Shown in pieces: positions 28,613-49,394 of a stretch of 64,000 bases of DNA; positions within the stretch are counted from its first letter, which is position 1; each line of letters begins with the position of its first letter. Source of the stretch: Clavaria fumosa. Its lineage: Eukaryota; Basidiomycota; Agaricomycetes; Agaricales; Clavariaceae. Made by a program: the position numbers and the translations under genes. The notes beneath the pieces were generated by a model. It saw only the letters and a program-made list of their open reading frames with translations, made no database searches and had not been told where the DNA came from. Where the stretch lies: positions 2,046,001-2,110,000 of the forward strand of contig OX637800.1 of NCBI GenBank assembly GCA_951802425.1, given 5' to 3'.

Positions 28613-29530
28613 TGTAGTGGGTATTACGGTTCTTGCTGCAACTGCTTGATTACAGTCAAGTCCTTCAGGGGTTCCTGTAAGGCGTTAGAGATTCACCAAA
28701 CACCCTTGAGGATGTGGAGTATGAATTCAAAATATGTGAGAAATAGAAATATACGGTGTCCGGGATATTCTGCTATGTGTCCGATAAAATCCGATAAGGA
28801 TGGTGCGATAAGACGAAGGGCCGGCAACGACGGAGGCCAGCGGATCGAAGGTTGCGACGACGGGTGAGCTTAGGTGAGGTTTCTAACAGAGAGAAGGGGT
28901 TCAGAAAGCTGTATTTCAGAGAGGTCCGGAGTGTACTTAAGTACAGTTCTGTAAGTACAGCAAATTGGAATGTACGGAAATGTCCGGAAAACACATGGAA
29001 CAGCGCCATGTCGCGTGAAGGGTTACATGAAGGAGTTATATCACAAGGGAAATGAGTAGCTCGGAGGAATGAAATGTCCGATAACTAGCAAATGTCCGGA
29101 CCGCTCATAAACTGAAGGAAAGTGGGGCTGGTACAGCAAAGGGGTACTAAGAACAATGGACAAGGTACTGCAAAGGGTTTGAAACGTTTAAACGATTGAA
29201 TGGTTGAAAGGGATCATAATATGAAATTTACAGCATGGTATATGAAATAAAGGAATGGGAATGGAATAGTGTGTATGTCGAGCGCTGACCGTGCTGGAGA
29301 GGTGAAATAGAGAGGCGTGGGCGGTGTGTGAGAGCGGTGGGCTGTGATCGTCACGGGGGATTGAAGACCGAAGTGTCCGACATCGGACATGTATCGGATA
29401 CTATCGGTCGTTATCGGACGGTGTCGGATCGTTATCGGTTCGTATCGCACGTAATTTCTTTGGATCGCAAAACATCCGGATAGTCGGTATCTGTCATGTT
29501 TCCGTGTTTAGATCGCATATGGTCCTTACA
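28613..29530 (-). repeat. LTR-G, 3' LTR of G1
   Basis: 918 bp; I see one base different from the other LTR of G1 (near 29404). Next to the purine-rich end of the interior (rc of 29531-29538). Confidence 0.94.
29368..29438 (-). promoter_or_regulatory. Phased CCGAY array in LTR-G
   Basis: Same motif series as described at 40503-40573, here in the 3' LTR of G1 with one substitution in a spacer. Confidence 0.6.
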
Positions 29531-29687
29531 TTCTCCCGGGGGCTGAAAATGCAACCGCCCTCGGTTGCAACCAAACAAGGCCAAATAACGGTTTGTTGAT
29601 CGTGAAGTACGCGTCGTGTGGGTGCACATAGGTCCCAACACACCCTTGTGTTTTCTCCAGCGACAGCAACACGTCAACTCTCCGACA

Positions 29688-31239
29688 ATGGAAAACTTCG
29701 ATTCTTCAATCTTTCGAAACGCAGTCCAGGCGATGACCGAGGCGCAGGCCATGGCGCCGGGCGAGGAGTTGCCGGATCGGGGGCAGGATGGAGAGTGCGC
29801 GGAGTGGGTGGGGACGTATGCGGGTGACGCGGTGCGTGAACGAGAATCTTTCGTACTTTTTTTGTATCGCACTGACAACGTTTTTAGGACGATTTTCTTG
29901 CCGGATATGTGGCAGCGATCGACGACGACGTGGAGGTGGACGAGGGACTCGTCCGGGTCGCGCGAAGGCTCAAGAAGTGGCGGAAGCTCCGCGGGGACGA
30001 GTGGTCCGCTGAGCGGACGAGAAGGCGGGAGGAGGTCGAGGCCGAGAAACAGCGCACGAGCGAGGAGAGGGCGGCTACTGAGCGGGCCGCAGCAGAGGCG
30101 GAGGCGGAGGAGAGGCGGGCGGAGGCGGCGAGGGCTGCCGAGAAGAGGGCGCGCCTTGCCCGGGCGCGCTTAATTGTCGTAAGTGACAGCGACGACGAGG
30201 GCGAGGCGGCGGCGGCGGCAACAACGACGACGACGGGAGCGGCGGAGTCCGGTGCAGTGGCGGTAACAACGACGACGATATCACCGGACGCCGGAGAGCT
30301 GCGTGTGGACGAGGTGGCGGCAGGGGAGGATCCGGACGGTCATCGGACCGTGTGGGGAACCGACGGGGTGACGCCCGTCGGTGTTATCGAGGCGGCGGCG
30401 GTGAGTGCGGTGGCCGGGGGAGGCGAGCAGTCGGTGGAGGAGCCGATGTTCGTGCACCGGGACGGTGCGCGGATGATGGCGACTCCGGTGTGGGTGGAGA
30501 TCGCGAGGCGGAAGGCAGCGGAGCGAGGGCGAGGGAGGAGAGGCGGGGCGAAGAGCGACATAGAGTCCCGGGCTGCGCGGCAGCCTGGAGATAAGGTGAG
30601 TGGTTAATTAAGATATGTGAGGCTTTTTCGACGTCTGATATAATGATTAGGAGCACGTTCCGGGGTGCAAGGAGTGCACCCGGAAGTGGCGGGCGTGCTA
30701 CGGAGTGGAGGGGATAGCGTGCCGGTGGTGCCGGACGTATAAGGTATCGTGCAGTCTGTCGGCTGTGCGAGGTAAGTGGTATTCTTTTTATTTTTCATGA
30801 TGAGACAAATGATAGGTGTGTTTCAGGAGCGAAAACAGAGAGAGCGGCGGTGTCCGGAACGGAAGGTATGTCGAGAAGGTATCGGGTCCGCATTTGCTAA
30901 CGTATCGGAACAGGTCCGGAGGCGGCGGGAGCGAGCGGAAGTAAGAGGCCGAGGCGAGGTGCGACGCGGGTACCGGTTCGCGAGGAGACGACGCCGGAGG
31001 AGGAGGACGAGATTGAGGAGGATACCAGTGTGGAGCTGGTGGAGGAGCCGCCGGCAAAGAAGAAGAAGGCGGAGGAGGGACCAAGTCGGAAGGGTAAGGA
31101 GCGGGAGGTGGCGCGAGGGGTGTCCGGGAGGGAGGCGCTCGATAGGGCGCTGGAGATGATGGAGAGGGGGGCGGACCAGGTGAAGGCCGGAGCGGAGCTG
31201 CTCCGGATGCTCCTCCTTGGCGAGTCGTCCTCTAAGTAA
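29688..31239 (+). CDS. Antisense spliced Zn2Cys6-like gene of G1 (five exons, 445 aa)
   Basis: Encoded opposite to gag-pol, starting 157 bp inside the 3' LTR. Exons: 29688-29831, 29888-30595, 30651-30771, 30827-30865, 30914-31239. Introns of 56, 55, 55 and 48 bp are all GT-AG, and the total of 1338 bp closes in frame. Exon 1 is a short acidic N-terminus. Exon 2 has a basic patch (RRLKKWRKLR), a long Glu/Arg/Ala probable coiled coil, then an acidic SDSDDEGE stretch. Exon 3 has cysteine codons at 30666, 30675, 30696, 30720, 30729 and 30750, giving C-X2-C-X6-C-X7-C-X2-C-X6-C, as in fungal Zn2Cys6 clusters. Exon 5 has acidic and KKKK stretches and a C-terminal amphipathic-looking helix. Probably a nuclear DNA-binding protein; target unknown. 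Relative to the canonical cluster, the first loop has few lysines. Same gene in G2 at 47687-49237, older counterpart in H. Confidence 0.82.
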
Positions 31240-31469
31240 ATATTTTGTTTTTGTTTTTATATATGTTTTTCTTTTTCTATTTGGTATGGTATGTCGTGTG
31301 GGATAAGTGAGGAATGTGAGAATGTGAGAAAATGGTTGAAAGAACGTCGGGTATAAAGTTTGGACTTGTCCGAAATTTCGATTTTATTTTTTTTTTTTAT
31401 TTTTTTTTTTTGAAGGTGTGAATCAATGTGAAGTATAGAAAAATGAAGGATATGATGGAGAAAAAATAC
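31240..31469. other. Convergent 3' region of G1
   Basis: AT-rich stretch between the stop of the antisense gene and the stop of pol, with long T runs near 31386-31413. Likely holds the polyadenylation signals of the antisense transcript; no specific signal identified. Confidence 0.5.
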
Positions 31470-34400
31470 TTAATGGCGAGGCCGAAGGTTCCGGGTTGCT
31501 CCGGAACGTTGCGGACGAGTTTCTGCAGTGTCGTCGTCGGTGGTTTCATTATCGGATTCATCGGATAGGTCAGCCGCTTGGTTTTGCTCATCTTCTCTGT
31601 CGATAGAGTTGGGTGACGCCTCGTGTATTTGATAGGGAGAGATGTCCTCGTTTATCTCCGTCGTTTGGTCGATGATAGAAGTGACCGGAATCGATGTTTG
31701 CGACCTCGGATAGTAGGGAATGATGCGGAAAGCTGCGTAGTGGATTTTGGAAACGGCGCCGTCGAGTTCCGAGAGAATATAGGCGCCATATTGTGTTCGG
31801 CGAACGACGATCATCGGTCCGAAGAATCGCGGTTTTGTTTTTCGATTTAATTCCATTTCAACGGCCGAATTGCGGATCAATACCAACGATCCGGGTTGGA
31901 AGTCGTAGTCGATAATAGACTTCCGGTGTGCGTCGATGAACTGCTTGACGGATTGTTTGCGGGCAGCGAGCACTTTATCGGCGATTGTTGCTAGATCTTC
32001 TTCTCGTTTTTGCAGTTGGCGGGCACGAAGGGCTATCAGTTCCGGAGTGGTCATCGGGGCGTCGGCGGTCGGAATTAAATATGTTGCTTCGGATATGTCG
32101 AAGGGGAAAAGCGGTTCGACGCCATGTGCGATGTAAAATGGGGAGTGGCCGGTGGACCGTTGGATCGTGGTTCGTTCTGCCCAAATGACTGAGGGTAAAA
32201 CGTCCGGCCATTTCGATTCGTCTCCATCTGCTGCTTTGATTAACGACTCACGGACCGATCGATGGGCACGTTCGATGACGCCGTTAGCGCGGGAGTTGTA
32301 TCCGGATATACGGATGTGATGGATTCCGTACCGTTTCTTAAGGAAATCGAGGGCTTTGATAAATGGGGCTCCGTTATCCGTGATAATCTCTTCTACTGCT
32401 CCCCATCGGCATAGTATATCTTCGAATATGAAGGTTCCGAGAAGTCGGGCGGTCTCGTTTCGTAGCGGTCTTGCTTCCGGATATGCGGATAACGAGCATC
32501 GGGCGTGGACGAGAAGTCGGAAACCGCGGGCTCTTGGTAGGAACATAGTATCAATGTGCGCTCGACGGAAAAGACCGGCCGGTGTAGCGACCGTCGGTGG
32601 AATGAAGATCTTCCGGATTTGCCGAGTTTGGCATTGGTGACAAGTTTTGACAAACCATTTTACGTCTTGATCCAGCACCGGCCACCAGAACCGATTTAGA
32701 ATACGTGTCCGGATAACGTAAACGCCTTTGTGGCCGAGTGAATCGTGTGCCTCTGTGATAATTGCGAGACGTTTGTGGTCCGGAGGTACTACTTGGTGGT
32801 ATCCGTTAGGTCGGCGACGCCATAATTTGTCATCTAGGATGAAGAACTCGGATGCGGAGCGGACCAGTCGTCGGAACTGGTTTGCGTCAATGCCGGAGGG
32901 ACGGATCGGGTTTCGAAGGAAAGATTCAATTTTGCGAATCTGTTCTTCTCTTTTGTTTGCTGCATCGGATCGGGGTATAAGGACGGCGGAAGATTCGTTC
33001 AGGGTCGGTGATTCCTCGGGTGGTACCGTCGAATTGAGTAGCGTCGATCCTGTGTAAACTTTGAAGCGAGTATGGGTGATGCCGGCGAGTCGTGTCTCGG
33101 ATGTGTAGGAAGCGTCCGGTGCTCGATTCATGTGTTCCATGGCGAATACGTAGCTCCGATCGATCCATTCTTCGTGATCTTCAGACTCGGTATCTTCTTC
33201 ACCATCTGCGGCACGTCGGCGTGATAGTCCGTCGGCTCCGGTGTGCTTATCTGCGGGAATATGAACAAGATCGAAATCGAAGAGTAGTATACCGGCAATC
33301 CATCGATTCATGGCAGCGTTGGGTTGAATGTCCGGATTGTTTAGCATACCCTTAATGAACTTCGCGTCCATTTCGACAGTAAATTTCGGAAGGCCTATAA
33401 GGTAAATCCGGTACGACCGAAGTGCGCGGAAGAGTCCGTATAATTCGATTTTTGCTTGTGAGTATCGGGCCTCGCGTTCGTTCCAGGTAATGGAGCCAAA
33501 GCGGGAGGGATATCGTATTCCATCTTCTCCAATTTGGAAGAGTGCGAAACCAACGGCGATATTTGATGAGTCGACGGCGAGGATTACGGGTTGTCCGGAG
33601 CGGTAGTCGATTGGTCGGATGGCGGATGAGTTCAGAATCGCGTGTTTGAGTCGGTCCATCGAGTTTTGTTCTTCTTTTTCGAATCTGAATGGCACGTCCT
33701 TGCGAGTTAGACTGACAAGAGGTCGGGCAAGTACGGCGTAGTTTTTAATGAATATCCGGAGTAGTCCGCAAACCCCTAAAAATGATCGGACATCGGTCAG
33801 GGTTTTGCAAGGAGGCCAGTCCCGGATACGCTGAACGTTGGAGGCATCCGGAACTCGTCCTTCGTATGTGCACGTATGTCCGGTAACGACTGCTTCGGGA
33901 ACGCAAATTGTCGTTTTCTTGCCGTTAAAGGTTCCTCCGACTTTCTTGATTCGTTGGAGCACCCGGTTGACGTTATTTAAATGCTCCCAAACAAATCGTC
34001 GTATTTGCGGATTCTCAGGGATCGTCTCGTAGGTGCCGTCCGGAAGCTCGTATCGGGTTTCCGGGCCCTTGATCGCTACATCGTCTACGAATGGGATGGT
34101 TACGTGCGGAATTTCATCTTGTAGAACATGCGTGACGTCTCCATGCATAATCTGCGTCGCGTTGGTGTATCCCATGGGGACGCAGGTGAGCCGTTTTGCT
34201 CCGAGAGGGGTTTGAAACGTGGTGAGGTCTCGGCTTCGTTCGTCCAGAGACCGCTGATCGAAGGAGACGAAAAGGTCGAGTGATCCGTAACATCCGCGTC
34301 CGGCGAATGATTCCGCAAAAACCTCCATTATCGGGGGGACCGCGGAATCGCCGATAGTGATTTTGTTAAGCGGCTGGAGGTTGTGCACGAGTCGGAGAGA

Positions 34401-35207
34401 CTTTCCGTCTTTCTTTAACACGCAAAACCACTGGGACCGATAAGAAGAGTTGGATTCTTCATAAACGCCGGCTGCGATCTTTTCCCGGATTACTTTGAGA
34501 ACTTCGTCGTAAATACCGGGGGGAATCGGTATATTTTTGAAGATCCAAGGGATATGTTCGACTGTCGGGATAATAATCGGATCGAAGTATTTTGCGTCGA
34601 ATCGTCCTTTTTCGGTCTCTTTCCAAGCGAAGGCGTCTTCCTGGGCTTTAATAAGATGGTGAACGAGTTTTTCTTCCTCCGGCCATAAGAATCCGGTGGG
34701 GTTGGCGTTGTGCGTGTCTTTCCGGTTTTGAGTGTATCGAAGACCGGGGGTGAAATCGGGGGGATGGGTCGGAAGAGTTGGCATATCGGCTAGGGGGTCC
34801 GGGTGTCGGCGTCGGACAATCCGGAATTCTTTGGGTACTGTCGCTTTGATCGGATTGACGCGATTCGCGACTTTCTTATATTTCTTTCCCAAGTAAACTG
34901 GAAGAACGGCGTCCGTAGACAGGGAGTTTATTTCGGGGGTTTTGTTGTACAAGGGGGTTGCAACATTTGGACGCGACGGTTCACGTCCGATAGCGACTGG
35001 GGAATCAGCGGAATCGAGAGAAACGTCCGAGATACTGATACAGGGGAAGGGGTCGAGAGAGACTGGGTTTATAAGGGAAAACGATAAGGGAACGTGAACG
35101 GAAGTAGGAAAAATGGCTGGAGTCTCGTATCTGGGTATAGCTTCCGTGTCCGCATTGATCGGAGGTAAGTCCGTTGGTTTGCGGACATTCGAGGCTCCAG
35201 CTCTCAA
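31470..35207 (-). CDS. Pol of G1: RT, RNase H, integrase
   Basis: 1245 aa open frame in the -1 frame relative to gag. Order: spacer; RT (VLKKDGKSLRLVHNLQPLN near residue 260, FVDD near 372); RNase H (AVDSSN near 545, then QAKIELYG, MDAKF); integrase with HDSLGHKGVY and CHQC zinc-binding residues (about 820-865), AHIDTM (first Asp), TDNGAPF (second Asp) and GVIERAHRS (Glu). No chromodomain is visible at the C-terminus, which is acidic and ends in a basic patch. All catalytic residues appear intact, so the protein may be active. Differs from G2 by a few residues, for example G here against S in HDSLxHKG. Confidence 0.93.
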   Translation of the reverse strand: MRAGASNVRKPTDLPPINADTEAIPRYETPAIFPTSVHVPLSFSLINPVSLDPFPCISISDVSLDSADSPVAIGREPSRPNVATPLYNKTPEINSLSTDAVLPVYLGKKYKKVANRVNPIKATVPKEFRIVRRRHPDPLADMPTLPTHPPDFTPGLRYTQNRKDTHNANPTGFLWPEEEKLVHHLIKAQEDAFAWKETEKGRFDAKYFDPIIIPTVEHIPWIFKNIPIPPGIYDEVLKVIREKIAAGVYEESNSSYRSQWFCVLKKDGKSLRLVHNLQPLNKITIGDSAVPPIMEVFAESFAGRGCYGSLDLFVSFDQRSLDERSRDLTTFQTPLGAKRLTCVPMGYTNATQIMHGDVTHVLQDEIPHVTIPFVDDVAIKGPETRYELPDGTYETIPENPQIRRFVWEHLNNVNRVLQRIKKVGGTFNGKKTTICVPEAVVTGHTCTYEGRVPDASNVQRIRDWPPCKTLTDVRSFLGVCGLLRIFIKNYAVLARPLVSLTRKDVPFRFEKEEQNSMDRLKHAILNSSAIRPIDYRSGQPVILAVDSSNIAVGFALFQIGEDGIRYPSRFGSITWNEREARYSQAKIELYGLFRALRSYRIYLIGLPKFTVEMDAKFIKGMLNNPDIQPNAAMNRWIAGILLFDFDLVHIPADKHTGADGLSRRRAADGEEDTESEDHEEWIDRSYVFAMEHMNRAPDASYTSETRLAGITHTRFKVYTGSTLLNSTVPPEESPTLNESSAVLIPRSDAANKREEQIRKIESFLRNPIRPSGIDANQFRRLVRSASEFFILDDKLWRRRPNGYHQVVPPDHKRLAIITEAHDSLGHKGVYVIRTRILNRFWWPVLDQDVKWFVKTCHQCQTRQIRKIFIPPTVATPAGLFRRAHIDTMFLPRARGFRLLVHARCSLSAYPEARPLRNETARLLGTFIFEDILCRWGAVEEIITDNGAPFIKALDFLKKRYGIHHIRISGYNSRANGVIERAHRSVRESLIKAADGDESKWPDVLPSVIWAERTTIQRSTGHSPFYIAHGVEPLFPFDISEATYLIPTADAPMTTPELIALRARQLQKREEDLATIADKVLAARKQSVKQFIDAHRKSIIDYDFQPGSLVLIRNSAVEMELNRKTKPRFFGPMIVVRRTQYGAYILSELDGAVSKIHYAAFRIIPYYPRSQTSIPVTSIIDQTTEINEDISPYQIHEASPNSIDREDEQNQAADLSDESDNETTDDDTAETRPQRSGATRNLRPRH

Positions 35208-37201
35208 AAATCCGGATGCGGTTTCTTGTTCTTCAAGGATTTGCGGATCGGGATTCGCTCCTTCGTTGGCACTATGATTCTTTCTCCGGTGTTTGGATCG
35301 TTGAGAATAAGGTCCTGGGCCCCGTGGGGATGGTCAATCGTTTGGGAACCGGTTAACATGAAAAACGGTCGTCCGACAAGAACCTCGCAGGGCAACGTGT
35401 CTGCTACTTGCATTTGAACATGGAATGTGCACGGACCGATCTGTAGGGGGAAATTCTTGATGAGTCCGAGGGTCGGAGCGATGGTGCCATGAGAGGATTC
35501 CATGTGAATAACGTTCTCGGAGTGTAGTGGGTTGCCGAGTTTCTCCCAAACGTCTCTTCGCATTGCCACGATTGAGCTGCCTTGGTCGAGCAGGCACTCC
35601 GCGGCGATCCGGTTGTCCAATATCCCTTCTACGATGCGGAGCGGAGCAGCGTCGACGGCGACAACAAGATCGGAGGTGTCCGGGACCGTAATGTTTGTAT
35701 AGAGCGTATCCTGTACGACGGACGCGGTGACCGGAACGCGACGAGCGGTAACCACATCCTTCATCTTTTTGCGGATGTCTCCGGAAATGGCGAGTAGTTC
35801 GCGAGGTGTGACGCGGACTGGCATGTCGAGTGCGCGATCGAATACTTGTTGAACGGTTACCGGATTTTCGATCGGAGCTTGGTAATGGTACTGGACGTCG
35901 GGTCGTTCGATTTTCTCCGGCTTTGATGGACGAGTGACCTGAGGCGGCGTAATAACAACGGCGGGTGGGGGCGGTAACCTAGATGGCTGAGGATCGGTAT
36001 TCCTGGGTGTGGGTGCTTTCCTTTTGCCCTTGTCTACTTTCTTCGCGACATCGTTTGCAAAGGTGCAGACCATGTTTTCCAACACGGTATTCTCGTCATC
36101 TTCCTCGTCCGAATCGTCTTCCATGTCCGGGGGGTGAGCGGATTGTCCGATCGGCTGTGCTTCAAATACCGCGGTTGTCGCCGGTTGCGTGTTCTGGGAT
36201 TGGTATGTAGCGTAGTACTTGTTGAAGCGCTCGGATAGGTTGTTCCCTGAGATAGTGCCTGGCAAATATCGTCCGGAGGGGAGACAAATCCTGCCTTCTG
36301 TGTTCCGTATACATTTGCCGGACTTAATGTATTCGAGGGCCTTCGGACAGGCACTAACAAAATGACCTATTTCCGAACAGAAATTACACGTCCGGCCTGC
36401 GGGAGAGTTCGTTGTCCGGGGAGCGGAGTGTCTTGCCGGTTCGAGAGATTGGGCTGTCAAAATCGATTCCAGGCGAGCCATTGTGGAAGCGAATGTTGCC
36501 CATGCTGCGGACATATCAAATTCTTCCTTCTTGACTACCGGTTTCGTTTCTCTCCCGGGGGCTGAAGATGCGAGACGGACGGGTCCGGAAAGTTGATCGG
36601 TTGTCGCAGAGTGGGGGGACGTCGAGGAGAGAAGAAATTCAGCTGCACCATGTACTTCATTCATGGGGTAAGGATCCTCCGGATGGTGGTTTGGTAGTAT
36701 GATAGCGAGTCGGCTTTCGATCCGACGCCTTGTATGATCCCCAAATCCGAGGATGTAAAGTCGGTTCCTGTCATTTGTGGACATACGCTGTGATGTGATC
36801 AAGTGCGAGGTGATCCGGAGAAAGTCCCGATAGTATTCTCCGTGTTCTGCGCGCGTGTAAACTCCCTTTTGGGCCGAGTCCGATATGAAACGGTCCAGGT
36901 CGGCGACGGAAAATAAGCGACCTCCATCAGATCCTGGATAAAGTCGTCGGACGGCCGCTTTGAAGGTATCCCACGTCCATACCGGGTCCGGGTCAGGTGA
37001 AAGAGTCTCCCAGAGGAGACACGTATCGGTGTCGAGATAGTGCTTGGCGTACCGAATTAAATCGGGTTCTGGAACGTCCGGGTTGACGCCGGTGAGCACG
37101 ATGTCGATGTCCTCGAAGTACCGGTTGAGGTGTGTCGGTACTCCGTCAAAGGCAGGGGCCCCGTGGGCGCCACGGAGCGGATATCTCGGTTGGTTGGCCA
37201 T
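35204..37201 (-). CDS. Gag-protease of G1
   Basis: 665 aa. The Gag part has a CCHC knuckle CNFCSEIGHFVSAC near residue 272. An acidic linker and a Pro-rich part follow. The C-terminal third is a retropepsin-like domain with LLDQGSSIVAM near residue 539 and VLVGRPFF near 608. The active-site triad reads D-Q-G instead of the usual D-T/S-G. The stop overlaps the pol frame by a few bases with GGATTTT just before it (rc of 35207-35213), a candidate -1 frameshift site. Identical in layout to the G2 product at 41718-43715. Confidence 0.93.
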   Translation of the reverse strand: MANQPRYPLRGAHGAPAFDGVPTHLNRYFEDIDIVLTGVNPDVPEPDLIRYAKHYLDTDTCLLWETLSPDPDPVWTWDTFKAAVRRLYPGSDGGRLFSVADLDRFISDSAQKGVYTRAEHGEYYRDFLRITSHLITSQRMSTNDRNRLYILGFGDHTRRRIESRLAIILPNHHPEDPYPMNEVHGAAEFLLSSTSPHSATTDQLSGPVRLASSAPGRETKPVVKKEEFDMSAAWATFASTMARLESILTAQSLEPARHSAPRTTNSPAGRTCNFCSEIGHFVSACPKALEYIKSGKCIRNTEGRICLPSGRYLPGTISGNNLSERFNKYYATYQSQNTQPATTAVFEAQPIGQSAHPPDMEDDSDEEDDENTVLENMVCTFANDVAKKVDKGKRKAPTPRNTDPQPSRLPPPPAVVITPPQVTRPSKPEKIERPDVQYHYQAPIENPVTVQQVFDRALDMPVRVTPRELLAISGDIRKKMKDVVTARRVPVTASVVQDTLYTNITVPDTSDLVVAVDAAPLRIVEGILDNRIAAECLLDQGSSIVAMRRDVWEKLGNPLHSENVIHMESSHGTIAPTLGLIKNFPLQIGPCTFHVQMQVADTLPCEVLVGRPFFMLTGSQTIDHPHGAQDLILNDPNTGERIIVPTKERIPIRKSLKNKKPHPDF

Positions 37202-37569: not shown

Positions 37570-37586
37570 CCTCGCGGTGGGCTCCA
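37570..37586 (-). other. Primer-binding site of G1
   Basis: TGGAGCCCACCGCGAGG on the minus strand, 4 bp after the 5' LTR. It starts TGG as expected for pairing with a tRNA 3' CCA end; the tRNA is not identified with certainty. Confidence 0.75.
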
Positions 37587-37590: not shown

Positions 37591-38508
37591 TGTAGTGGGT
37601 ATTACGGTTCTTGCTGCAACTGCTTGATTACAGTCAAGTCCTTCAGGGGTTCCTGTAAGGCGTTAGAGATTCACCAAACACCCTTGAGGATGTGGAGTAT
37701 GAATTCAAAATATGTGAGAAATAGAAATATACGGTGTCCGGGATATTCTGCTATGTGTCCGATAAAATCCGATAAGGATGGTGCGATAAGACGAAGGGCC
37801 GGCAACGACGGAGGCCAGCGGATCGAAGGTTGCGACGACGGGTGAGCTTAGGTGAGGTTTCTAACAGAGAGAAGGGGTTCAGAAAGCTGTATTTCAGAGA
37901 GGTCCGGAGTGTACTTAAGTACAGTTCTGTAAGTACAGCAAATTGGAATGTACGGAAATGTCCGGAAAACACATGGAACAGCGCCATGTCGCGTGAAGGG
38001 TTACATGAAGGAGTTATATCACAAGGGAAATGAGTAGCTCGGAGGAATGAAATGTCCGATAACTAGCAAATGTCCGGACCGCTCATAAACTGAAGGAAAG
38101 TGGGGCTGGTACAGCAAAGGGGTACTAAGAACAATGGACAAGGTACTGCAAAGGGTTTGAAACGTTTAAACGATTGAATGGTTGAAAGGGATCATAATAT
38201 GAAATTTACAGCATGGTATATGAAATAAAGGAATGGGAATGGAATAGTGTGTATGTCGAGCGCTGACCGTGCTGGAGAGGTGAAATAGAGAGGCGTGGGC
38301 GGTGTGTGAGAGCGGTGGGCTGTGATCGTCACGGGGGATTGAAGACCGAAGTGTCCGACATCGGACATGTATCGGATACTATCGGTGGTTATCGGACGGT
38401 GTCGGATCGTTATCGGTTCGTATCGCACGTAATTTCTTTGGATCGCAAAACATCCGGATAGTCGGTATCTGTCATGTTTCCGTGTTTAGATCGCATATGG
38501 TCCTTACA
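37591..38508 (-). repeat. LTR-G, 5' LTR of G1
   Basis: 918 bp. Carries the phased CCGAY array at 38346-38416. Confidence 0.94.
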
Positions 38509-40410: not shown

Positions 40411-41328
40411 TGTAAGGACCATATGCGATCTAAACACGGAAACATGACAGATACCGACTATCCGGATGTTTTGCGATCCAAAGAAATTACGTGCGATACG
40501 AACCGATAACGATCCGACACCGTCCGATAACCACCGATAGTATCCGATACATGTCCGATGTCGGACACTTCGGTCTTCAATCCCCCGTGACGATCACAGC
40601 CCACCGCTCTCACACACCGCCCACGCCTCTCTATTTCACCTCTCCAGCACGGTCAGCGCTCGACATACACACTATTCCATTCCCATTCCTTTATTTCATA
40701 TACCATGCTGTAAATTTCATATTATGATCCCTTTCAACCATTCAATCGTTTAAACGTTTCAAACCCTTTGCAGTACCATGTCCATTGTTCTTAGTACCCC
40801 TTTGCTGTACCAGCCCCACTTTCCTTCAGTTTATGAGCGGTCCGGACATTTGCTAGTTATCGGACATTTCATTCCTCCGAGCTACTCATTTCCCTTGTGA
40901 TATAACTCCTTCATGTAACCCTTCACGCGACATGGCGCTGTTCCATGTGTTTTCCGGACATTTCCGTACATTCCAATTTGCTGTACTTACAGAACTGTAC
41001 TTAAGTACACTCCGGACCTCTCTGAAATACAGCTTTCTGAACCCCTTCTCTCTGTTAGAAACCTCACCTAAGCTCACCCGTCGTCGCAACCTTCGATCCG
41101 CTGGCCTCCGTCGTTGCCGGCCCTTCGTCTTATCGCACCATCCTTATCGGATTTTATCGGACACATAGCAGAATATCCCGGACACCGTATATTTCTATTT
41201 CTCACATATTTTGAATTCATACTCCACATCCTCAAGGGTGTTTGGTGAATCTCTAACGCCTTACAGGAACCCCTGAAGGACCTGACTGTAATCAAGCAGT
41301 TGCAGCAAGAACCGTAATACCCACTACA
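40411..41328 (+). repeat. LTR-G, 5' LTR of G2
   Basis: 918 bp, TGTAAGG...ACTACA. One visible difference from 49395-50312 (C at 40998 against G in the other copy). Confidence 0.94.
40503..40573 (+). promoter_or_regulatory. Helically phased CCGAY array in LTR-G
   Basis: CCG triplets begin at 40503, 40514, 40524, 40534, 40544 and 40555, each as CCGAT or CCGAC, so spacing is 10-11 bp. Two reversed CGG triplets follow at 40562 and 40571. The array lies about 90 bp inside the LTR, in the expected U3 promoter zone. It is present in all four LTR-G copies, and the phasing is still visible in the old copy G' (near 40020-40090), where some CCGAT have become CCAAT. Possible binding array for the Zn2Cys6-like protein of the element. 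Confidence 0.6.
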
Positions 41329-41332
41329 ATTC

Positions 41333-41349
41333 TGGAGCCCACCGCGAGG
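41333..41349 (+). other. Primer-binding site of G2
   Basis: TGGAGCCCACCGCGAGG, 4 bp after the 5' LTR, identical to G1. Confidence 0.75.
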
Positions 41350-41717
41350 GGTTCAACAAGACGTCTTCACTACCACCCTCAAGGATTCCCAGAGGCTCAT
41401 CCGCTCCTCAGCCTCGACGCTCCGAACGCCTGAGAAGTCGAAACCCGAATCCGATCACAGAACCACCGCCCTCCGAACCCCCCGGAGAAGTAATTGAAAC
41501 TTCCCACCTTCTTCCATCGGACATTCCCAGTATCTCATCCATTGTCTACTCCCACACGAGTTTCACCACTCCGGATCCCTCACTACCACAGACCTTCGAA
41601 CAACCACACTCACCGCTTACACCACTTCCCCTTGAACCAGACATCCTTCATTTCCCGCCCGAAACACCTCAGAATTCACCAGACGAAGTTCACTCACCGC
41701 CCCACGCACCAATACAA

Positions 41718-43715
41718 ATGGCCAACCAACCGAGATATCCGCTCCGTGGCGCCCACGGGGCCCCTGCCTTTGACGGAGTACCGACACACCTCAACCGGTA
41801 CTTCGAGGACATCGACATCGTGCTCACCGGCGTCAACCCGGACGTTCCAGAACCCGATTTAATTCGGTACGCCAAGCACTATCTCGACACCGATACGTGT
41901 CTCCTCTGGGAGACTCTTTCACCTGACCCGGACCCGGTATGGACGTGGGATACCTTCAAAGCGGCCGTCCGACGACTTTATCCAGGATCTGATGGAGGTC
42001 GCTTATTTTCCGTCGCCGACCTGGACCGTTTCATATCGGACTCGGCCCAAAAGGGAGTTTACACGCGCGCAGAACACGGAGAATACTATCGGGACTTTCT
42101 CCGGATCACCTCGCACTTGATCACATCACAGCGTATGTCCACAAATGACAGGAACCGACTTTACATCCTCGGATTTGGGGATCATACAAGGCGTCGGATC
42201 GAAAGCCGACTCGCTATCATACTACCAAACCACCATCCGGAGGATCCTTACCCCATGAATGAAGTACATGGTGCAGCTGAATTTCTTCTCTCCTCGACGT
42301 CCCCCCACTCTGCGACAACCGATCAACTTTCCGGACCCGTCCGTCTCGCATCTTCAGCCCCCGGGAGAGAAACGAAACCGGTAGTCAAGAAGGAAGAATT
42401 TGATATGTCCGCAGCCTGGGCAACATTCGCTTCCACAATGGCTCGCCTGGAATCGATTTTGACAGCCCAATCTCTCGAACCGGCAAGACACTCCGCTCCC
42501 CGGACAACGAACTCTCCCGCAGGCCGGACGTGTAATTTCTGTTCGGAAATAGGTCATTTTGTTAGTGCCTGTCCGAAGGCCCTCGAATACATTAAGTCCG
42601 GCAAATGTATACGGAACACAGAAGGCAGGATTTGTCTCCCCTCCGGACGATATTTGCCAGGCACTATCTCAGGGAACAACCTATCCGAGCGCTTCGACAA
42701 GTACTACGCTACATACCAATCCCAGAACACGCAACTGGCGACAACCGCGGTATTTGAAGCACAGCCGATCGGACAATCCGCTCACCCCCCGGACATGGAA
42801 GACGATTCGGACGAGGAAGATGACGAGAATACCGTGTTGGAAAACATGGTCCGCACCTTTGCAAACGATGTCGCGAAGAAAGTAGACAAGGGCAAAAGGA
42901 AAGCACCCACACCCAGGAATACCGATCCTCAGCCATCTAGGTTACCGCCCCCACCCGCCGTTGTTATTACGCCGCCTCAGGTCACTCGTCCATCAAAGCC
43001 GGAGAAAATCGAACGACCCGACGTCCAGTACCATTACCAAGCTCCGATCGAAAATCCGGTAACCGTTCAACAAGTATTCGATCGCGCACTCGACATGCCA
43101 GTCCGCGTCACACCTCGCGAACTACTCGCCATTTCCGGAGACATCCGCAAAAAGATGAAGGATGTGGTTACCGCTCGTCGCGTTCCGGTCACCGCGTCCG
43201 TCGTACAGGATACGCTCTATACAAACATTACGGTCCCGGACACCTCCGATCTTGTTGTCGCCGTCGACGCTGCTCCGCTCCGCATCGTAGAAGGGATATT
43301 GGACAACCGGATCGCCGCGGAGTGCCTGCTCGACCAAGGCAGCTCAATCGTGGCAATGCGAAGAGACGTTTGGGAGAAACTCGGCAACCCACTACACTCC
43401 GAGAACGTTATTCACATGGAATCCTCTCATGGCACCATCGCTCCGACCCTCGGACTCATCAAGAATTTCCCCCTACAGATCGGTCCGTGCACATTCCATG
43501 TTCAAATGCAAGTAGCAGACACGTTGCCCTGCGAGGTTCTTGTCGGACGACCGTTTTTCATGTTAACCGGTTCCCAAACGATTGACCATCCCCACGGGGC
43601 CCAGGACCTTATTCTCAACGATCCAAACACCGGAGAAAGAATCATAGTGCCAACGAAGGAGCGAATCCCGATCCGCAAATCCTTGAAGAACAAGAAACCG
43701 CATCCGGATTTTTGA
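41718..43715 (+). CDS. Gag-protease of G2
   Basis: 665 aa, same domains as G1: CCHC knuckle near residue 272, protease with DQGSS near 539 and VLVGRPFF near 608. Visible residue differences from G1 include D for N in LSERFxKYY, L for P in NTQxATTA and R for C in MVxTFAND. It would form the particle core and process the polyproteins. Translation of pol probably depends on a -1 shift at 43706-43712. Confidence 0.94.
   Translation: MANQPRYPLRGAHGAPAFDGVPTHLNRYFEDIDIVLTGVNPDVPEPDLIRYAKHYLDTDTCLLWETLSPDPDPVWTWDTFKAAVRRLYPGSDGGRLFSVADLDRFISDSAQKGVYTRAEHGEYYRDFLRITSHLITSQRMSTNDRNRLYILGFGDHTRRRIESRLAIILPNHHPEDPYPMNEVHGAAEFLLSSTSPHSATTDQLSGPVRLASSAPGRETKPVVKKEEFDMSAAWATFASTMARLESILTAQSLEPARHSAPRTTNSPAGRTCNFCSEIGHFVSACPKALEYIKSGKCIRNTEGRICLPSGRYLPGTISGNNLSERFDKYYATYQSQNTQLATTAVFEAQPIGQSAHPPDMEDDSDEEDDENTVLENMVRTFANDVAKKVDKGKRKAPTPRNTDPQPSRLPPPPAVVITPPQVTRPSKPEKIERPDVQYHYQAPIENPVTVQQVFDRALDMPVRVTPRELLAISGDIRKKMKDVVTARRVPVTASVVQDTLYTNITVPDTSDLVVAVDAAPLRIVEGILDNRIAAECLLDQGSSIVAMRRDVWEKLGNPLHSENVIHMESSHGTIAPTLGLIKNFPLQIGPCTFHVQMQVADTLPCEVLVGRPFFMLTGSQTIDHPHGAQDLILNDPNTGERIIVPTKERIPIRKSLKNKKPHPDF
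43706..43712 (+). other. Candidate -1 frameshift heptamer GGATTTT
   Basis: In gag phase the site reads G-GAT-TTT-TGA; slipping back one base gives GGA-TTT-TTG and enters pol directly. GGAUUUU is, as I recall, a slip site used by a plant RNA virus (red clover necrotic mosaic virus). The downstream stimulatory structure was not analysed. Confidence 0.5.
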
Positions 43716-46700
43716 GAGCTGGAGCCTCGAATGTCCGCAAACCAACGGACTTACCTCCGATCAATGCGGACACGGAAGCTATACCCAGATACGAGACTCC
43801 AGCCATTTTTCCTACTTCCGTTCACGTTCCCTTATCGTTTTCCCTTATAAACCCAGTCTCTCTCGACCCCTTCCCCTGTATCAGTATCTCGGACGTTTCT
43901 CTCGATTCCGCTGATTCCCCAGTCGCTATCGGACGTGAACCGTCGCGTCCAAATGTTGCAACCCCCTTGTACAACAAAACCCCCGAAATAAATTCCCTGT
44001 CTACGGACGCCGTTCTTCCAGTTTACTTGGGAAAGAAATATAAGAAAGTCGCGAATCGCGTCAATCCGATCAAAGCGACAGTACCCAAAGAATTCCGGAT
44101 TGTCCGACGCCGACACCCGGACCCCCTAGCCGATATGCCAACTCTTCCGACCCATCCCCCCGATTTCACCCCCGGTCTTCGATACACTCAAAACCGGAAA
44201 GACACGCACAACGCCAACCCCACCGGATTCTTATGGCCGGAGGAAGAAAAACTCGTTCACCATCTTATTAAAGCCCAGGAAGACGCCTTCGCTTGGAAAG
44301 AGACCGAAAAAGGACGATTCGACGCAAAATACTTCGATCCGATTATTATCCCGACAGTCAAACATATCCCTTGGATCTTCAAAAATATACCGATTCCCCC
44401 CGGTATTTACGACGAAGTTCTCAAAGTAATCCGGGAAAAGATCGCAGCCGGCGTTTATGAAGAATCCAACTCTTCTTATCGGTCCCAGTGGTTTTGCGTG
44501 TTAAAGAAAGACGGAAAGTCTCTCCGACTCGTGCACAACCTCCAGCCGCTTAACAAAATCACTATCGGCGATTCCGCGGTCCCCCCGATAATGGAGGTTT
44601 TTGCGGAATCATTCGCCGGACGCGGATGTTACGGATCACTCGACCTTTTCGTCTCCTTCGATCAGCGGTCTCTGGACGAACGAAGCCGAGACCTCACCAC
44701 GTTTCAAACCCCTCTCGGAGCAAAACGGCTCACCTGCGTCCCCATGGGATACACCAACGCGACGCAGATTATGCATGGAGACGTCACGCATGTTCTACAA
44801 GATGAAATTCCGCACGTAACCATCCCATTCGTAGACGATGTAGCGATCAAGGGCCCGGAAACCCGATACGAGCTTCCGGACGGCACCTACGAGACGATCC
44901 CTGAGAATCCGCAAATACGACGATTTGTATGGGAGCATTTAAATAACGTCAACCGGGTGCTCCAACGAATCAAGAAAGTCGGAGGAACCTTTAACGGCAA
45001 GAAAACGACAATTTGCGTTCCCGAAGCAGTCGTTACCGGACATACGTGCACATACGAAGGACGAGTTCCGGATGCCTCCAACGTTCAGCGTATCCGGGAC
45101 TGGCCTCCTTGCAAAACCCTGACCGATGTCCGATCATTTTTAGGGGTTTGCGGACTACTCCGGATATTCATTAAAAACTACGCCGTACTTGCCCGACCTC
45201 TTGTCAGTCTAACTCGCAAGGACGTGCCATTCAGATTCGAAAAAGAAGAACAAAACTCGATGGACCGACTCAAACACGCGATTCTGAACTCATCCGCCAT
45301 CCGACCAATCGACTACCGCTCCGGACAACCCGTAATCCTCGCCGTCGACTCATCAAATATCGCCGTTGGTTTCGCACTCTTCCAAATTGGAGAAGATGGA
45401 ATACGATATCCCTCCCGCTTTGGCTCCATTACCTGGAACGAACGCGAGGCCCGATACTCACAAGCAAAAATCGAATTATACGGACTCTTCCGCGCACTTC
45501 GGTCGTACCGGATTTACCTTATAGGCCTTCCGAAATTTACTGTCGAAATGGACGCGAAGTTCATTAAGGGTATGCTAAACAATCCGGACATTCAACCCAA
45601 CGCTGCCATGAATCGATGGATTGCCGGTATACTACTCTTCGATTTCGATCTTGTTCATATCCCCGCAGATAAGCACACCGGAGCCGACGGACTATCACGC
45701 CGACGTGCCGCAGATGGTGAAGAAGATACCGAGTCTGAAGATCACGAAGAATGGATCGATCGGAGCTACGTATTCGCCATGGAACACATGAATCGAGCAC
45801 CGGACGCTTCCTACACATCCGAGACACGACTCGCCGGCATCACCCATACTCGCTTCAAAGTTTACACAGGATCGACGCTACTCAATTCGACGGTACCACC
45901 CGAGGAATCACCGACCCCGAACGAATCTTCCGCCGTCCTTATACCCCGATCCGATGCAGCAAACAAAAGAGAAGAACAGATTCGCAAAATTGAATCTTTC
46001 CTTCGAAACCCGATCCGTCCCTCCGGCATTGACGCAAACCAGTTCCGACGACTGGTCCGCTCCGCATCCGAGTTCTTCATCCTAGATGACAAATTATGGC
46101 GACGCCGACCTAACGGATACCACCAAGTAGTACCTCCGGACCACAAACGTCTCGCAATTATCACAGAGGCACACGATTCACTCAGCCACAAAGGCGTTTA
46201 CGTTATCCGGACACGTATTCTAAATCGGTTCTGGTGGCCGGTGCTGGATCAAGACGTAAAATGGTTTGTCAAAACTTGTCACCAATGCCAAACTCGGCAA
46301 ATCCGGAAGATCTTCATTCCACCGACGGTCGCTACACCGGCCGGTCTTTTCCGTCGAGCGCACATTGATACTATGTTCCTACCAAGAGCCCGCGGTTTCC
46401 GACTTCTCGTCCACGCCCGATGCTCGTTATCCGCATATCCGGAAGCAAGACCGCTACGAAACGAGACCGCCCGACTTCTCGGAACCTTCATATTCGAAGA
46501 TATACTATGCCGATGGGGAGCAGTAGAAGAGATTATCACGGATAACGGAGCCCCATTTATCAAAGCCCTCGATTTCCTTAAGAAACGGTACGGAATCCAT
46601 CACATCCGTATATCCGGATACAACTCCCGCGCTAACGGCGTCATCGAACGTGCCCATCGATCGGTCCGTGAGTCGTTAATCAAAGCAGCAGATGGAGACG

Positions 46701-47449
46701 AATCGAAATGGCCGGACGTTTTACCCTCAGTCATTTGGGCAGAACGAACCACGATCCAACGGTCCACCGGCCACTCCCCATTTTACATCGCACATGGCGT
46801 CGAACCGCTTTTCCCCTTCGACATATCCGAAGCAACATATTTAATTCCGACCGCCGACGCCCCGATGACCACTCCGGAACTGATAGCCCTTCGTGCCCGC
46901 CAACTGCAAAAACGAGAAGAAGATCTAGCAACAATCGCCGATAAAGTGCTCGCTGCCCGCAAACAATCCGTCAAGCAGTTCATCGACGCACACCGGAAGT
47001 CTATTATCGACTACGACTTCCAACCCGGATCGTTGGTATTGATCCGCAATTCGGCCGTTGAAATGGAATTAAATCGAAAAACAAAACCGCGATTCTTCGG
47101 ACCGATGATCGTCGTTCGCCGAACACAATATGGCGCCTATATTCTCTCGGAACTCGACGGCGCCGTTTCCAAAATCCACTACGCAGCTTTCCGCATCATT
47201 CCCTACTATCCGAGGTCGCAAACATCGATTCCGGTCACTTCTATCATCGACCAAACGACGGAGATAAACGAGGACATCTCTCCCTATCAAATACACGAGG
47301 CGTCACCCAACTCTATCGACAGAGAAGATGAGCAAAACCAAGCGGCTGACCTATCCGATGAATCCGATAATGAAACCACCGACGACGACACTGCAGAAAC
47401 TCGTCCGCAACGCTCCGGAGCAACCCGGAACCTTCGGCCTCGCCATTAA
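43712..47449 (+). CDS. Pol of G2: RT, RNase H, integrase
   Basis: 1245 aa, colinear with the G1 product. RT catalytic FVDD near residue 372, RNase H about 540-660, integrase zinc region about 820-865 and DDE core about 884-980 are all intact. The listed start is TTG, so translation almost surely comes from frameshifting out of gag rather than a separate start. Residue differences from G1 include K for E in PTVxHIP, S for G in HDSLxHKG and P for L in ESPTxNES. The S sits beside the integrase zinc-binding His and could matter. Confidence 0.94.
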   Translation: MRAGASNVRKPTDLPPINADTEAIPRYETPAIFPTSVHVPLSFSLINPVSLDPFPCISISDVSLDSADSPVAIGREPSRPNVATPLYNKTPEINSLSTDAVLPVYLGKKYKKVANRVNPIKATVPKEFRIVRRRHPDPLADMPTLPTHPPDFTPGLRYTQNRKDTHNANPTGFLWPEEEKLVHHLIKAQEDAFAWKETEKGRFDAKYFDPIIIPTVKHIPWIFKNIPIPPGIYDEVLKVIREKIAAGVYEESNSSYRSQWFCVLKKDGKSLRLVHNLQPLNKITIGDSAVPPIMEVFAESFAGRGCYGSLDLFVSFDQRSLDERSRDLTTFQTPLGAKRLTCVPMGYTNATQIMHGDVTHVLQDEIPHVTIPFVDDVAIKGPETRYELPDGTYETIPENPQIRRFVWEHLNNVNRVLQRIKKVGGTFNGKKTTICVPEAVVTGHTCTYEGRVPDASNVQRIRDWPPCKTLTDVRSFLGVCGLLRIFIKNYAVLARPLVSLTRKDVPFRFEKEEQNSMDRLKHAILNSSAIRPIDYRSGQPVILAVDSSNIAVGFALFQIGEDGIRYPSRFGSITWNEREARYSQAKIELYGLFRALRSYRIYLIGLPKFTVEMDAKFIKGMLNNPDIQPNAAMNRWIAGILLFDFDLVHIPADKHTGADGLSRRRAADGEEDTESEDHEEWIDRSYVFAMEHMNRAPDASYTSETRLAGITHTRFKVYTGSTLLNSTVPPEESPTPNESSAVLIPRSDAANKREEQIRKIESFLRNPIRPSGIDANQFRRLVRSASEFFILDDKLWRRRPNGYHQVVPPDHKRLAIITEAHDSLSHKGVYVIRTRILNRFWWPVLDQDVKWFVKTCHQCQTRQIRKIFIPPTVATPAGLFRRAHIDTMFLPRARGFRLLVHARCSLSAYPEARPLRNETARLLGTFIFEDILCRWGAVEEIITDNGAPFIKALDFLKKRYGIHHIRISGYNSRANGVIERAHRSVRESLIKAADGDESKWPDVLPSVIWAERTTIQRSTGHSPFYIAHGVEPLFPFDISEATYLIPTADAPMTTPELIALRARQLQKREEDLATIADKVLAARKQSVKQFIDAHRKSIIDYDFQPGSLVLIRNSAVEMELNRKTKPRFFGPMIVVRRTQYGAYILSELDGAVSKIHYAAFRIIPYYPRSQTSIPVTSIIDQTTEINEDISPYQIHEASPNSIDREDEQNQAADLSDESDNETTDDDTAETRPQRSGATRNLRPRH

Positions 47450-47506
47450 GTATTTTTTCTCCATCATATCCTTCATTTTTCTATACTTCACATTGATTCA
47501 CACCTT

Positions 47507-47546
<40 letters not shown>

Positions 47547-47686
47547 GAAATTTCGGACAAGTCCAAACTTTATACCCGACGTTCTTTCAACCATTTTCTC
47601 ACATTCTCACATTCCTCACTTATCCCACACGACATACCATACCAAATAGAAAAAGAAAAACATATATAAAAACAAAAACAAAATAT
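47450..47686. other. Convergent 3' region of G2 with a 37-base A run
   Basis: Between the stops of pol and the antisense gene. Contains an uninterrupted A run at 47508-47544, which in G1 is interrupted and shorter. Confidence 0.6.
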
Positions 47687-49237
47687 TTACTTAGAGAACG
47701 ACTCGCCAAGGAGGAGCATCCGGAGCAGCTCCGCTCCGGCCTTCACCTGGTCCGCCCCCCTCTCCATCATCTCCAGCGCCCTATCGAGCGCCTCCCTCCC
47801 GGACACCCCTCGCGCCACCTCCCGCTCCTTACCCTTCCGACTTGGTCCCGCCTCCGCCTTCTTCTTCTTTGCCGGCGGCTCCTCCACCAGCTCCACACTG
47901 GTATCCTCCTCAATCTCGTCCTCCTCCTCCGGCGTCGTCTCCTCGCGAACCGGTACCCGCGTCGCACCTCGCCTCGGCCTCTTACTTCCGCTCGCTCCCG
48001 CCGCCTTCGGACCTGTTCCGATACGTTAGCAAATGCGGACCCGATACCTTCTCGACATACCTTCCGTTCCGGACACCGCCGCTCTCTCTGTTTTCGCTCC
48101 TGAAACACACCTATCATTTGTCTCATCATGAAAAATAAAAAGAATACCACTTACCTCGCACAGCCGACAGACTGCACGATACCTTATACGTCCGGCACCA
48201 CCGGCACGCTATCCCCTCCACTCCGTAGCACGCCCGCCACTTCCGGGTGCACTCCTTGCACCCCGGAACGTGCTCCTAATCATTATATCAGACGTCGAAA
48301 AAGCCTCACATATCTTAATTAACCACTCACCTTATCTCCAGGCTGCCGCGCAGCCCGGGACTCTATGTCGCTCTTCGCCCCGCCTCTCCTCCCTCGCCCT
48401 CGCTCCGCTGCCTTCCGCCTCGCGATCTCCACCCACACCGGAGTCGCCATCATCCGCGCACCGTCCTGGTGCACGAACATCGGCTCCTCCACCGACTGCT
48501 CGCCTCCCCCGGCCACCGCACTCACCGCCGCCGCCTCGATAACACCGACGGGCGTCACCCCGTCGGTTCCCCACACGGTCCGATGACCGTCCGGATCCTC
48601 CCCTGCCGCCACCTCGTCCACACGCAGCTCTCCGGCGTCCGGTGATATCGTCGTCGTTGTTACCGCCGCTGCACCGGACTCCGCCGCTCCCGTCGTCGTC
48701 GTTGTTGCCGCCGCCGCCGCCTCGCCCTCGTCGTCGCTGTCACTTACGACAATTAAGCGCGCCCGGGCAAGGCGCGCCCTCTTCTCGGCAGCCCTCGCCG
48801 CCTCCGCCCGCCTCTCCTCCGCCTCCGCCTCTGCTGCGGCCCGCTCAGTAGCCGCCCTCTCCTCGCTCGTGCGCTGTTTCTCGGCCTCGACCTCCTCCCG
48901 CCTTCTCGTCCGCTCAGCGGACCACTCGTCCCCGCGGAGCTTCCGCCACTTCTTGAGCCTTCGCGCGACCCGGACGAGTCCCTCGTCCACCTCCACGTCG
49001 TCGTCGATCGCTGCCACATATCCGGCAAGAAAATCGTCCTAAAAACGTTGTCAGTGCGATACAAAAAAGTACGAAAGATTCTCGTTCACGCACCGCGTCA
49101 CCCGCATACGTCCCCACCCACTCCGCGCACTCTCCATCCTGCCCCCGATCCGGCAACTCCTCGCCCGGCGCCATGGCCTGCGCCTCGGTCATCGCCTGGA
49201 CTGCGTTTCGAAAGATTGAAGAATCGAAGTTTTCCAT
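47687..49237 (-). CDS. Antisense spliced Zn2Cys6-like gene of G2
   Basis: Mirror of the G1 gene: start ATG at 49237-49235, stop at 47689-47687, same five-exon plan and the same six-cysteine cluster. The gene is one base shorter than in G1; that base lies in an intron T run, so the coding frame is unaffected. Residue changes include A for V, Q for R in FVHxDGA, A for E in KAExGPS, and F for S near the C-terminus. Preservation of all introns and of the frame in both copies argues that the gene is functional. Domain description and caveats as for 29688-31239. Confidence 0.82.
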
Positions 49238-49394
49238 TGTCGGAGAGTTGACGTGTTGCTGTCGCTGGAGAAAACACAAGGGTGTGTTTGGACCTATGTG
49301 CACCCACACGACGCGTACTTCACGATCAACAAACCGTTATTTGGCCTTGTTTGGTTGCAACCGAGGGCGGTTGCATTTTCAGCCCCCGGGAGAA

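Follow-up and report, generated by a model that had tools for sequence, protein, structure and literature searches.

The window analysed here, i.e., a 64,000-nucleotide stretch of the Clavaria fumosa genome (assembly GCA_951802425.1, contig OX637800.1, positions 2,046,001 to 2,110,000), contains two young, full-length Gypsy retrotransposons in opposite orientations that are 99.65% identical to each other (copies A and B). In copy A, a predicted gene lies on the plus strand, antisense to gag-pol, between pol and the 3′ long terminal repeat (LTR). It comprises five exons and four GT–AG introns of 48–56 bp, and the joined exons form a 1338-nt frame encoding 445 amino acids (aa) followed by a stop codon. 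This structure, including a C-X2-C-X6-C-X7-C-X2-C-X6-C spacing in exon 3, is exactly as claimed in an earlier reading of the sequence alone (hereafter, the sequence-only reading). A distance of 157 bp separates the gene start from the 3′ LTR, and one of 230 bp its end from the pol stop codon, the two genes being convergent.

A spliced gene antisense to gag-pol

A search of the source genome with the antisense gene yielded at least 170 matches, and our comparison is confined to copies within this genome. The sample included 30 returned loci (L009–L038) and 40 further fetched ones, for a total of 70 loci. These correspond to 72 aligned rows and 70 distinct copies, as the window copies are present twice (L012 and L022 are the same places). 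The gene model of copy A, with the conservation of its splice sites across these rows, is as follows:

29688..29831, plus strand: exon 1, with ATG and conserved N-terminal MENFD...
29832..29887, plus strand: intron 1, GTGCGT...TTTTAG, 56 bp; GT and AG in 72/72 rows, lengths 51–60
29888..30595, plus strand: exon 2, with the conserved N-terminal part, an E/A/R-rich stretch that looks coiled-coil-like by eye, and a variable middle
30596..30650, plus strand: intron 2, GTGAGT...GATTAG, 55 bp; GT and AG in 72/72 rows
30651..30771, plus strand: exon 3, with the zinc-cluster-like module
30666..30752, plus strand: C-X2-C-X6-C-X7-C-X2-C-X6-C motif within exon 3, aa 290–318
30772..30826, plus strand: intron 3, GTAAGT...TTTCAG, 55 bp; GT in 71/72 and AG in 71/72 rows
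30827..30865, plus strand: exon 4, 39 nt
30866..30913, plus strand: intron 4, GTATGT...GAACAG, 48 bp; GT in 71/72 and AG in 69/72 rows
30914..31239, plus strand: exon 5, with KRPRR (aa 348–352), acidic EEEDEIEED, PPAKKKK (aa 383–389), a C-terminal stretch that looks helix-like by eye, and TAA
47687..49237, minus strand: antisense gene of copy B, same five-exon model

The sole indel between the antisense genes of copies A and B is one base within intron 1. Because some alternative splice sites also leave open frames (443–446 aa), the exact exon junctions stay predicted, and since open runs of 136–213 codons also occur on the sense strand of this region, open frames alone are weak evidence here. 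In 69 of the 72 rows, i.e., in all but L060, L070, and L077, the full set of four GT and four AG is present. Among the 42 diverged copies (L010, L011, and L039–L078), the eight splice dinucleotides are 93–100% conserved, compared to means of 59% for the 94 other GT and 61% for the 145 other AG in the region. This pattern alone is not decisive, because 14% of these other GT and 21% of the other AG are ≥95% conserved as well, which weighs against reading splice-site conservation as proof of a gene. Decisive for a real coding gene are the frame-keeping indels and the codon-position pattern: in the diverged copies, 247 of 274 exon indels are divisible by three, compared to 62 of 262 in introns, and divergence from the window copy amounts to 14.2, 16.3, and 32.8% at codon positions 1, 2, and 3, respectively, and 31.2% in introns. 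With boundaries projected from the window copy, exon 1 measures 144 nt in 72/72 rows, exon 3 121 nt in 70/72, and exon 4 39 nt in 71/72. Introns range from 47 to 61 bp across copies, except for four copies of intron 4 with gaps or an insertion (24, 38, 40, and 776 bp), the longest of which, in L076, is probably due to an insertion.

Copies with early stops were included in these codon-position and indel counts, and excluded from the tests of selection. Ratios of non-synonymous to synonymous substitution rates (dN/dS) were 0.22–0.36 among the 22 pairs listed, restricted to copies with ≥400 codons ahead of any stop. A maximum-likelihood codon model of 14 genes and 454 codons (without L047) estimated an omega of 0.234, with a log-likelihood of −8908.9 vs. 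−9227.9 for the same tree with omega fixed at 1. Over 12 pairs, dN/dS ranged from 0.09 to 0.32 for the pol end and from 0.22 to 0.30 for the antisense gene, which by this measure is constrained, mostly a little less than the pol end. Within the young burst, i.e., 25 very young copies, purifying selection was not visible (22 non-synonymous and 13 synonymous variants, vs. 23.1 and 10.7 expected). This is as expected for copies so recent, and constraint therefore acted between subfamilies, through the copies that left descendants. The comparison of copies by dN/dS that the sequence-only reading had put forward as a check was thus borne out between subfamilies and gave no signal among the youngest copies. 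The young-copy count was made without L017 and L025, an earlier figure of 127 non-synonymous variants having been inflated by L017, probably a chimera, in which exon 5 is strongly divergent and no pol match is found. Decay is common, with 14 of the 42 diverged copies retaining ≥400 codons before a stop (two of these, L040 and L056, without ATG), and a further one, L045, having no stop in the piece read. Taken together, the existence of the antisense gene, its splicing pattern, and its selection are, from this comparative evidence, almost certain.

The gene is consistently found in the same position. Of the 70 loci, 68 have an LTR match upstream of the gene, at a distance of 146–173 bp in 65 cases and of 249, 812, and 842 bp in the other three. 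Downstream, 68 of the 70 have antisense pol, with its C-terminal end in 66; these loci were picked via the gene itself, so that elements without the gene are not counted. The LTR match is missing at L060 and L070 and the pol match at L017 and L051, and L020 and L060 match the pol start only. A half-motif of the zinc module had 136 matches in the genome vs. 0 for the reversed control. Judged by its surroundings, the antisense gene belongs to the element, and its place (the interval from pol to the 3′ LTR, in antisense orientation to gag-pol) is that of the open reading frames (ORFs) termed aORF-3R.

As a separate observation, three loci (L039, L042, and L049) have an LTR 6–11% and a pol 24–25% diverged from the window copy, and two (L046 and L048) an LTR 19% and a pol 9–10% diverged, a shuffling of LTR and pol between subfamilies that points to recombination between elements.

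Zinc-cluster-like module and U3 array

Fungal Zn(2)-Cys(6) modules follow the pattern C-X2-C-X6-C-X5-12-C-X2-C-X6-8-C, and this spacing is present in 15/15 aligned genes. The six cysteines are invariant in 28 aligned exon copies (the window copy and 27 of 30 distinct peptides), and of the three peptides outside this alignment, L009 and L026 keep all six and L021 has Cys3 changed. Zn_clus (PF00172) was the commonest Pfam match, in 25 of the 28 exon copies (best E-value 0.0049), and also matched 3 of 7 whole proteins (best E-value 0.1). The module resembles fungal Zn(2)-Cys(6) proteins in its six-cysteine spacing, in the basic residues between Cys2 and Cys3, and in a weak profile match over most of its length. 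It differs from them by a Trp where many relatives have Arg, by a window copy that scores under the Pfam cut-off, and by its internal position, whereas Zn(2)-Cys(6) modules are usually N-terminal. Further along the protein, the basic runs KRPRR and PPAKKKK flank an acidic run.

Several results weigh against a straightforward Zn(2)-Cys(6) assignment. The window exon scores 11.2 bits against Zn_clus (E-value 0.41), vs. a curated cut-off of 21 bits, and a stricter PROSITE pattern is passed by 11 of the 15 aligned genes and failed by the window copy. Another profile, zinc_ribbon_6, matches 11 of the 28 exon copies, its best E-value of 0.0028 being slightly ahead of that of Zn_clus (0.0049). AlphaFold models were of low confidence (predicted local distance difference test, pLDDT, of 55.7 from a single sequence and 54.4 from 28 sequences). 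A Foldseek comparison to 350,542 PDB chains at E ≤ 10 retrieved one chain, 1qp9 (HAP1-PC7 on its DNA site), a match that is suggestive, HAP1 being a zinc-cluster protein, but not significant (E-value 8.3, probability 0.06). Searching PDB sequences with an alignment of whole proteins, built from 7 of the 15 aligned genes, gave no match, and the matches of the exon alignment, i.e., zygote arrest protein 1 (E-value 0.4) and two MS2 coat chains, were taken as chance. An hhalign comparison to three host Zn_clus segments gave a local E-value of 0.00024 (probability 44%) and a global one of 0.004 (probability 3.5%); as this is a single comparison with a tiny template, these values were not used as proof.

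The Zn2Cys6 identity proposed by the sequence-only reading, along with the profile search and structure prediction it named as checks, hence came out mixed: the spacing and the Zn_clus matches in most exon copies agree with it, the window exon is sub-threshold, and the models are of low confidence. We name the module zinc-cluster-like, and do not count it as a member of PF00172. Overall, a zinc-cluster-like fold is probable, and a putative DNA-binding role of the protein is plausible.

Fungal zinc-cluster proteins bind CGG triplets, or CGG half-sites. Each LTR of copies A and B includes an array of such sequences at the head of U3, next to which lies a conserved non-coding stretch in copy A:

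29377..29438, minus strand: phased CCGA array with inverted TCGG, U3 head of copy A 3′ LTR (LTR positions 93–154; 250–311 bp upstream of the antisense ATG)
38355..38416, minus strand: matching array, copy A 5′ LTR
40503–40564 and 49487–49548: matching arrays, copy B LTRs
29531..29655, plus strand: conserved non-coding stretch from the 3′ LTR towards the gene, 125 bp; 10% diverged vs. 31% for introns

CCGA occurs at LTR positions 93, 104, 114, 124, 134, and 145, i.e., in a 10–11-bp phase, followed by an inverted TCGG at 151. The array reaches 8 CCGA/TCGG words per 110 bp, vs. a mean of 2.9 and a maximum of 7 in 2000 first-order Markov sequences. Across 39 LTRs (a count made without L064, L070, and L075, for which the LTR start was not recognised, and L077, which has lost the array), 116 of 158 pairs of neighbouring CCGA have a 10- or 11-bp spacing, and of the 42 remaining spacings, 28 measure 20–22 bp, i.e., two units. 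The commonest state across these LTRs is one unit fewer than in the window copy. Even at 37–38% local divergence, L071 and L072 have five and four of the six cores still as CCGA. By these counts, the U3 array is largely kept in phase across subfamilies.

Between the LTR and the gene, the conserved stretch is probably a polypurine tract together with an antisense promoter or 5′ untranslated region, and the 32 bp directly ahead of the ATG (29656–29687) are 37% diverged. A palindrome upstream of the gene, GCAACCG-CCCT-CGGTTGC, was considered as a second target and is not claimed, being intact in just 8 of 43 copies (WA, L049, L052, L057, L059, L064, L066, and L070). An array-like match at window position 56000 lies in a repeat-rich region, which we regard as unrelated on the basis of its translations. 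A scan for sigma-70 promoters, a model not applicable to fungi, had no matches.

Genome-wide, one strict form of the array has 420 matches vs. 68 for the reversed control. The matches listed (C1, C2, and the start of C3) include the array type of the window, some simple repeats, and a second type, CCGACCAACTCCGAC, which is often paired 7–9 kb apart in an LTR-like manner (C1:713542/720991, C2:665017/673762, and C2:1239149/1248297) and apparently marks a second LTR family. None of the 21 second-type arrays listed on C1 and C2 has a zinc half-motif within 5.7 kb, a search that would miss a divergent gene, and no second-type pair listed there encloses one. A further array variant, at C1:505246, has a half-motif 1.7 kb away.

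A candidate regulator and its alternatives

We tentatively propose, at somewhat less than even likelihood, that the antisense gene encodes a regulator of the element's own LTRs that acts through the U3 array, in an arrangement similar to the HBZ gene of human T-cell leukemia virus type 1 (HTLV-1). In this model, the accessory gene would be transcribed and spliced, and its product, combining the zinc-cluster-like module with a coiled-coil-like stretch and basic runs resembling nuclear signals, would enter the nucleus and bind zinc and the CCGA/TCGG array with its helical phasing. This array would belong to the sense promoter in the 5′ LTR and lie just upstream of the gene's own start in the 3′ LTR, such that the protein could control both gag-pol and itself. 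As to the sign of this control, the acidic segment would slightly favour activation, and a parallel with HBZ would favour repression. The claim of the sequence-only reading that the element encodes its own transcription regulator is thus upheld in that the gene is real, element-borne, and selected, and its regulatory part stays conditional, though strengthened by the CGG-type array in U3. A fuller version, in which a sequence-specific zinc-cluster factor and a matching U3 array close a feedback loop within the element at both LTRs, in convergence with HTLV HBZ, and the second LTR family exploits this loop in trans, appears doubtful.

The location of the gene may also explain how its introns persist. 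An element copied from RNA loses introns lying in the sense of that RNA, so that the opposite strand is the best place for a gene with introns. The genomic RNA to be reverse-transcribed would carry only the complement of the antisense gene, and would never present its introns as introns. The element described here illustrates this simple route by which an RNA-copied element can keep introns, i.e., by having the gene on the other strand.

A number of observations weigh against the regulator model. Conservation across the 39 LTRs is 88% for array cores and 79% for spacers, and the rest of the U3 head also reaches 88%. Five other checked copies (23–29% divergence) have three or four of the six cores left, and in L070, L075, and L077, outside the 39-LTR count, the array is weak or lost. 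Gene distances correlate only slightly better with LTR distances (Mantel r 0.68) than with pol distances (0.63), i.e., no strong gene–LTR co-evolution was detected in these 33 rows (the window copy, L010, L011, and 30 of L039–L078). Finally, the second-family arrays with no half-motif nearby suggest that the array may serve a host factor.

Among other explanations, it is possible, if rather unlikely, that the product is a nuclear accessory protein of the replication cycle, serving to import the pre-integration complex, to choose integration sites, or to handle RNA, with a module that binds RNA, DNA, or a partner without CGG specificity. All coding and constraint evidence would fit this equally well, the window module scores under the Zn_clus cut-off, and such roles have been suggested for plant antisense ORF proteins in the available part of one source (PMC7264820); however, it would leave the phased CGG-type array beside the gene unexplained. 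That the array is instead the target of a host zinc-cluster factor, with the element's protein doing something else, such as countering silencing, we consider improbable. The host does encode candidates, with at least 16 Zn_clus matches in a profile search of the genome (48.76 Mb, 17 contigs), each above the Pfam cut-off, and both the lack of strong gene–LTR coupling and the similar array of the second family point the same way. This family may use a host factor, but it might just as well make use of the element's protein in trans, or have a divergent gene of its own that the half-motif misses. A role of the antisense transcript rather than the protein, through antisense or double-stranded RNA control, appears very improbable: gene and pol are convergent with stops 230 bp apart, and control by antisense RNA has been discussed for elements of this kind (PMC7264820), but the omega of 0.234, the frame-keeping indels, and the invariant cysteines indicate selection on the encoded protein. 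That the gene is an ORF arisen by chance, or was captured recently from the host, as the sense-strand open runs might suggest, is already refuted by that same selection and by a five-exon model shared across subfamilies with LTRs up to 44–45% apart.

The proposed regulator can be further compared to known antisense genes of LTR elements. The brtn gene of Boty/BcGypsy1 is reportedly the subject of a 2011 study by Zhao, known to us by its title. According to the available parts of the sources, antisense accessory genes between pol and the 3′ LTR are known from plant elements and from fungal Boty (PMC7264820), in which brtn is an additional antisense gene of Boty/BcGypsy1 in Botrytis cinerea (PMC8365987). 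The Clavaria element resembles the latter, by description only, in being a Gypsy element of a fungus that carries an extra antisense gene; unlike Boty-like gag-pol, for which a chromodomain is reported in the part available (PMC4227169), none was found in it. Plant aORF-3R cases include Grande gene23, RIRE2, Retand, and PvRetro13 (PMC7264820, PMC11963269, as available). These are described in the available text as present in most copies of a family and, in a parallel to the Clavaria gene, with nuclear or DNA-binding products suggested (PMC7264820), and Grande gene23 as having its own promoter (PMC7264820). They differ in encoding TRP28, SMC, or no known domain in the portions available (PMC7264820, PMC11963269), TRP28 being a possible DNA-binding domain in Retand ORFs (PMC11963269). 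The words zinc and intron are absent from the main text of PMC11963269, and the available part of PMC7264820 describes no phased LTR array for plant elements.

HTLV-1 HBZ, as described in the accessible part of PMC3185765, is expressed as an antisense transcript from the 3′ LTR, the most abundant form of which is spliced, and inhibits LTR activation. This provides a working analogy, namely an antisense gene driven from the 3′ LTR, spliced in its major form, and encoding a regulator that acts on the LTR; unlike the gene described here, HBZ is a retroviral bZIP protein inhibiting through CREB and p300/CBP (PMC3185765, same part), and no homology is claimed. Our literature search (titles and abstract starts, with subscription papers mostly outside reach) found no fungal retrotransposon with an antisense zinc-cluster gene. 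The sequence-only reading, which knew of no fungal LTR element with such a gene, is therefore to be narrowed: the arrangement itself was already known, including from Boty, and the features new here, as far as this search tells, are the phased array in the LTR, the zinc-cluster-like module, and the set of four conserved introns. According to PMC7264820, what antisense accessory genes do for LTR elements is unknown. In Clavaria, the combination of a DNA-binding-like module, protein-level selection, conserved introns, and a candidate target located in the promoter of the element itself makes such a role directly testable.

The host element and its surroundings

The two elements and the main ORFs of copy A are located as follows:

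28613–38508, minus strand: copy A, full Gypsy element, TG...CA ends, 4-bp target-site duplication ACGC
28613..29530, minus strand: copy A 3′ LTR, 918 bp
37591..38508, minus strand: copy A 5′ LTR, 918 bp, 99.89% identical to copy A 3′ LTR
35204..37201, minus strand: copy A ORF for gag and protease, 665 aa; matches to a zinc knuckle and an aspartyl protease under Pfam cut-offs
31470..35207, minus strand: copy A pol ORF, 1245 aa; reverse transcriptase, RNase H, integrase
40411..50312, plus strand: copy B, full Gypsy element, LTRs 40411–41328 and 49395–50312, 4-bp target-site duplication GCGC

Copy B likewise has 918-bp LTRs with TG...CA ends that are 99.89% identical to each other. The LTR ends, the target-site duplications, and the order gag, protease, reverse transcriptase, RNase H, and integrase are those of Ty3/Gypsy elements. 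In pol, the RNase H and integrase zinc-binding domains score above their Pfam cut-offs, and RVT_1 (28 vs. 29.6 bits) and the integrase core score under theirs. A chromodomain, as expected for a chromovirus, had zero matches in pol at E ≤ 10. The gag-protease and pol ORFs share four bases at ...GATTTTTGAGAGC... (window 35190–35240), and the listed pol ORF starts with TTG, such that pol is likely expressed after gag-protease by frameshift or re-initiation.

Elsewhere in the window, a solo-LTR-like piece between copies A and B (39717–40165) matches part of the Gypsy LTR at ~83% identity, and positions 10147–23645 comprise nested Copia-type elements and fragments with RVT_2, copia gag, and integrase matches. 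A 760-bp near-perfect palindrome, ~94% identical to its own reverse complement, lies at 61857–62615.
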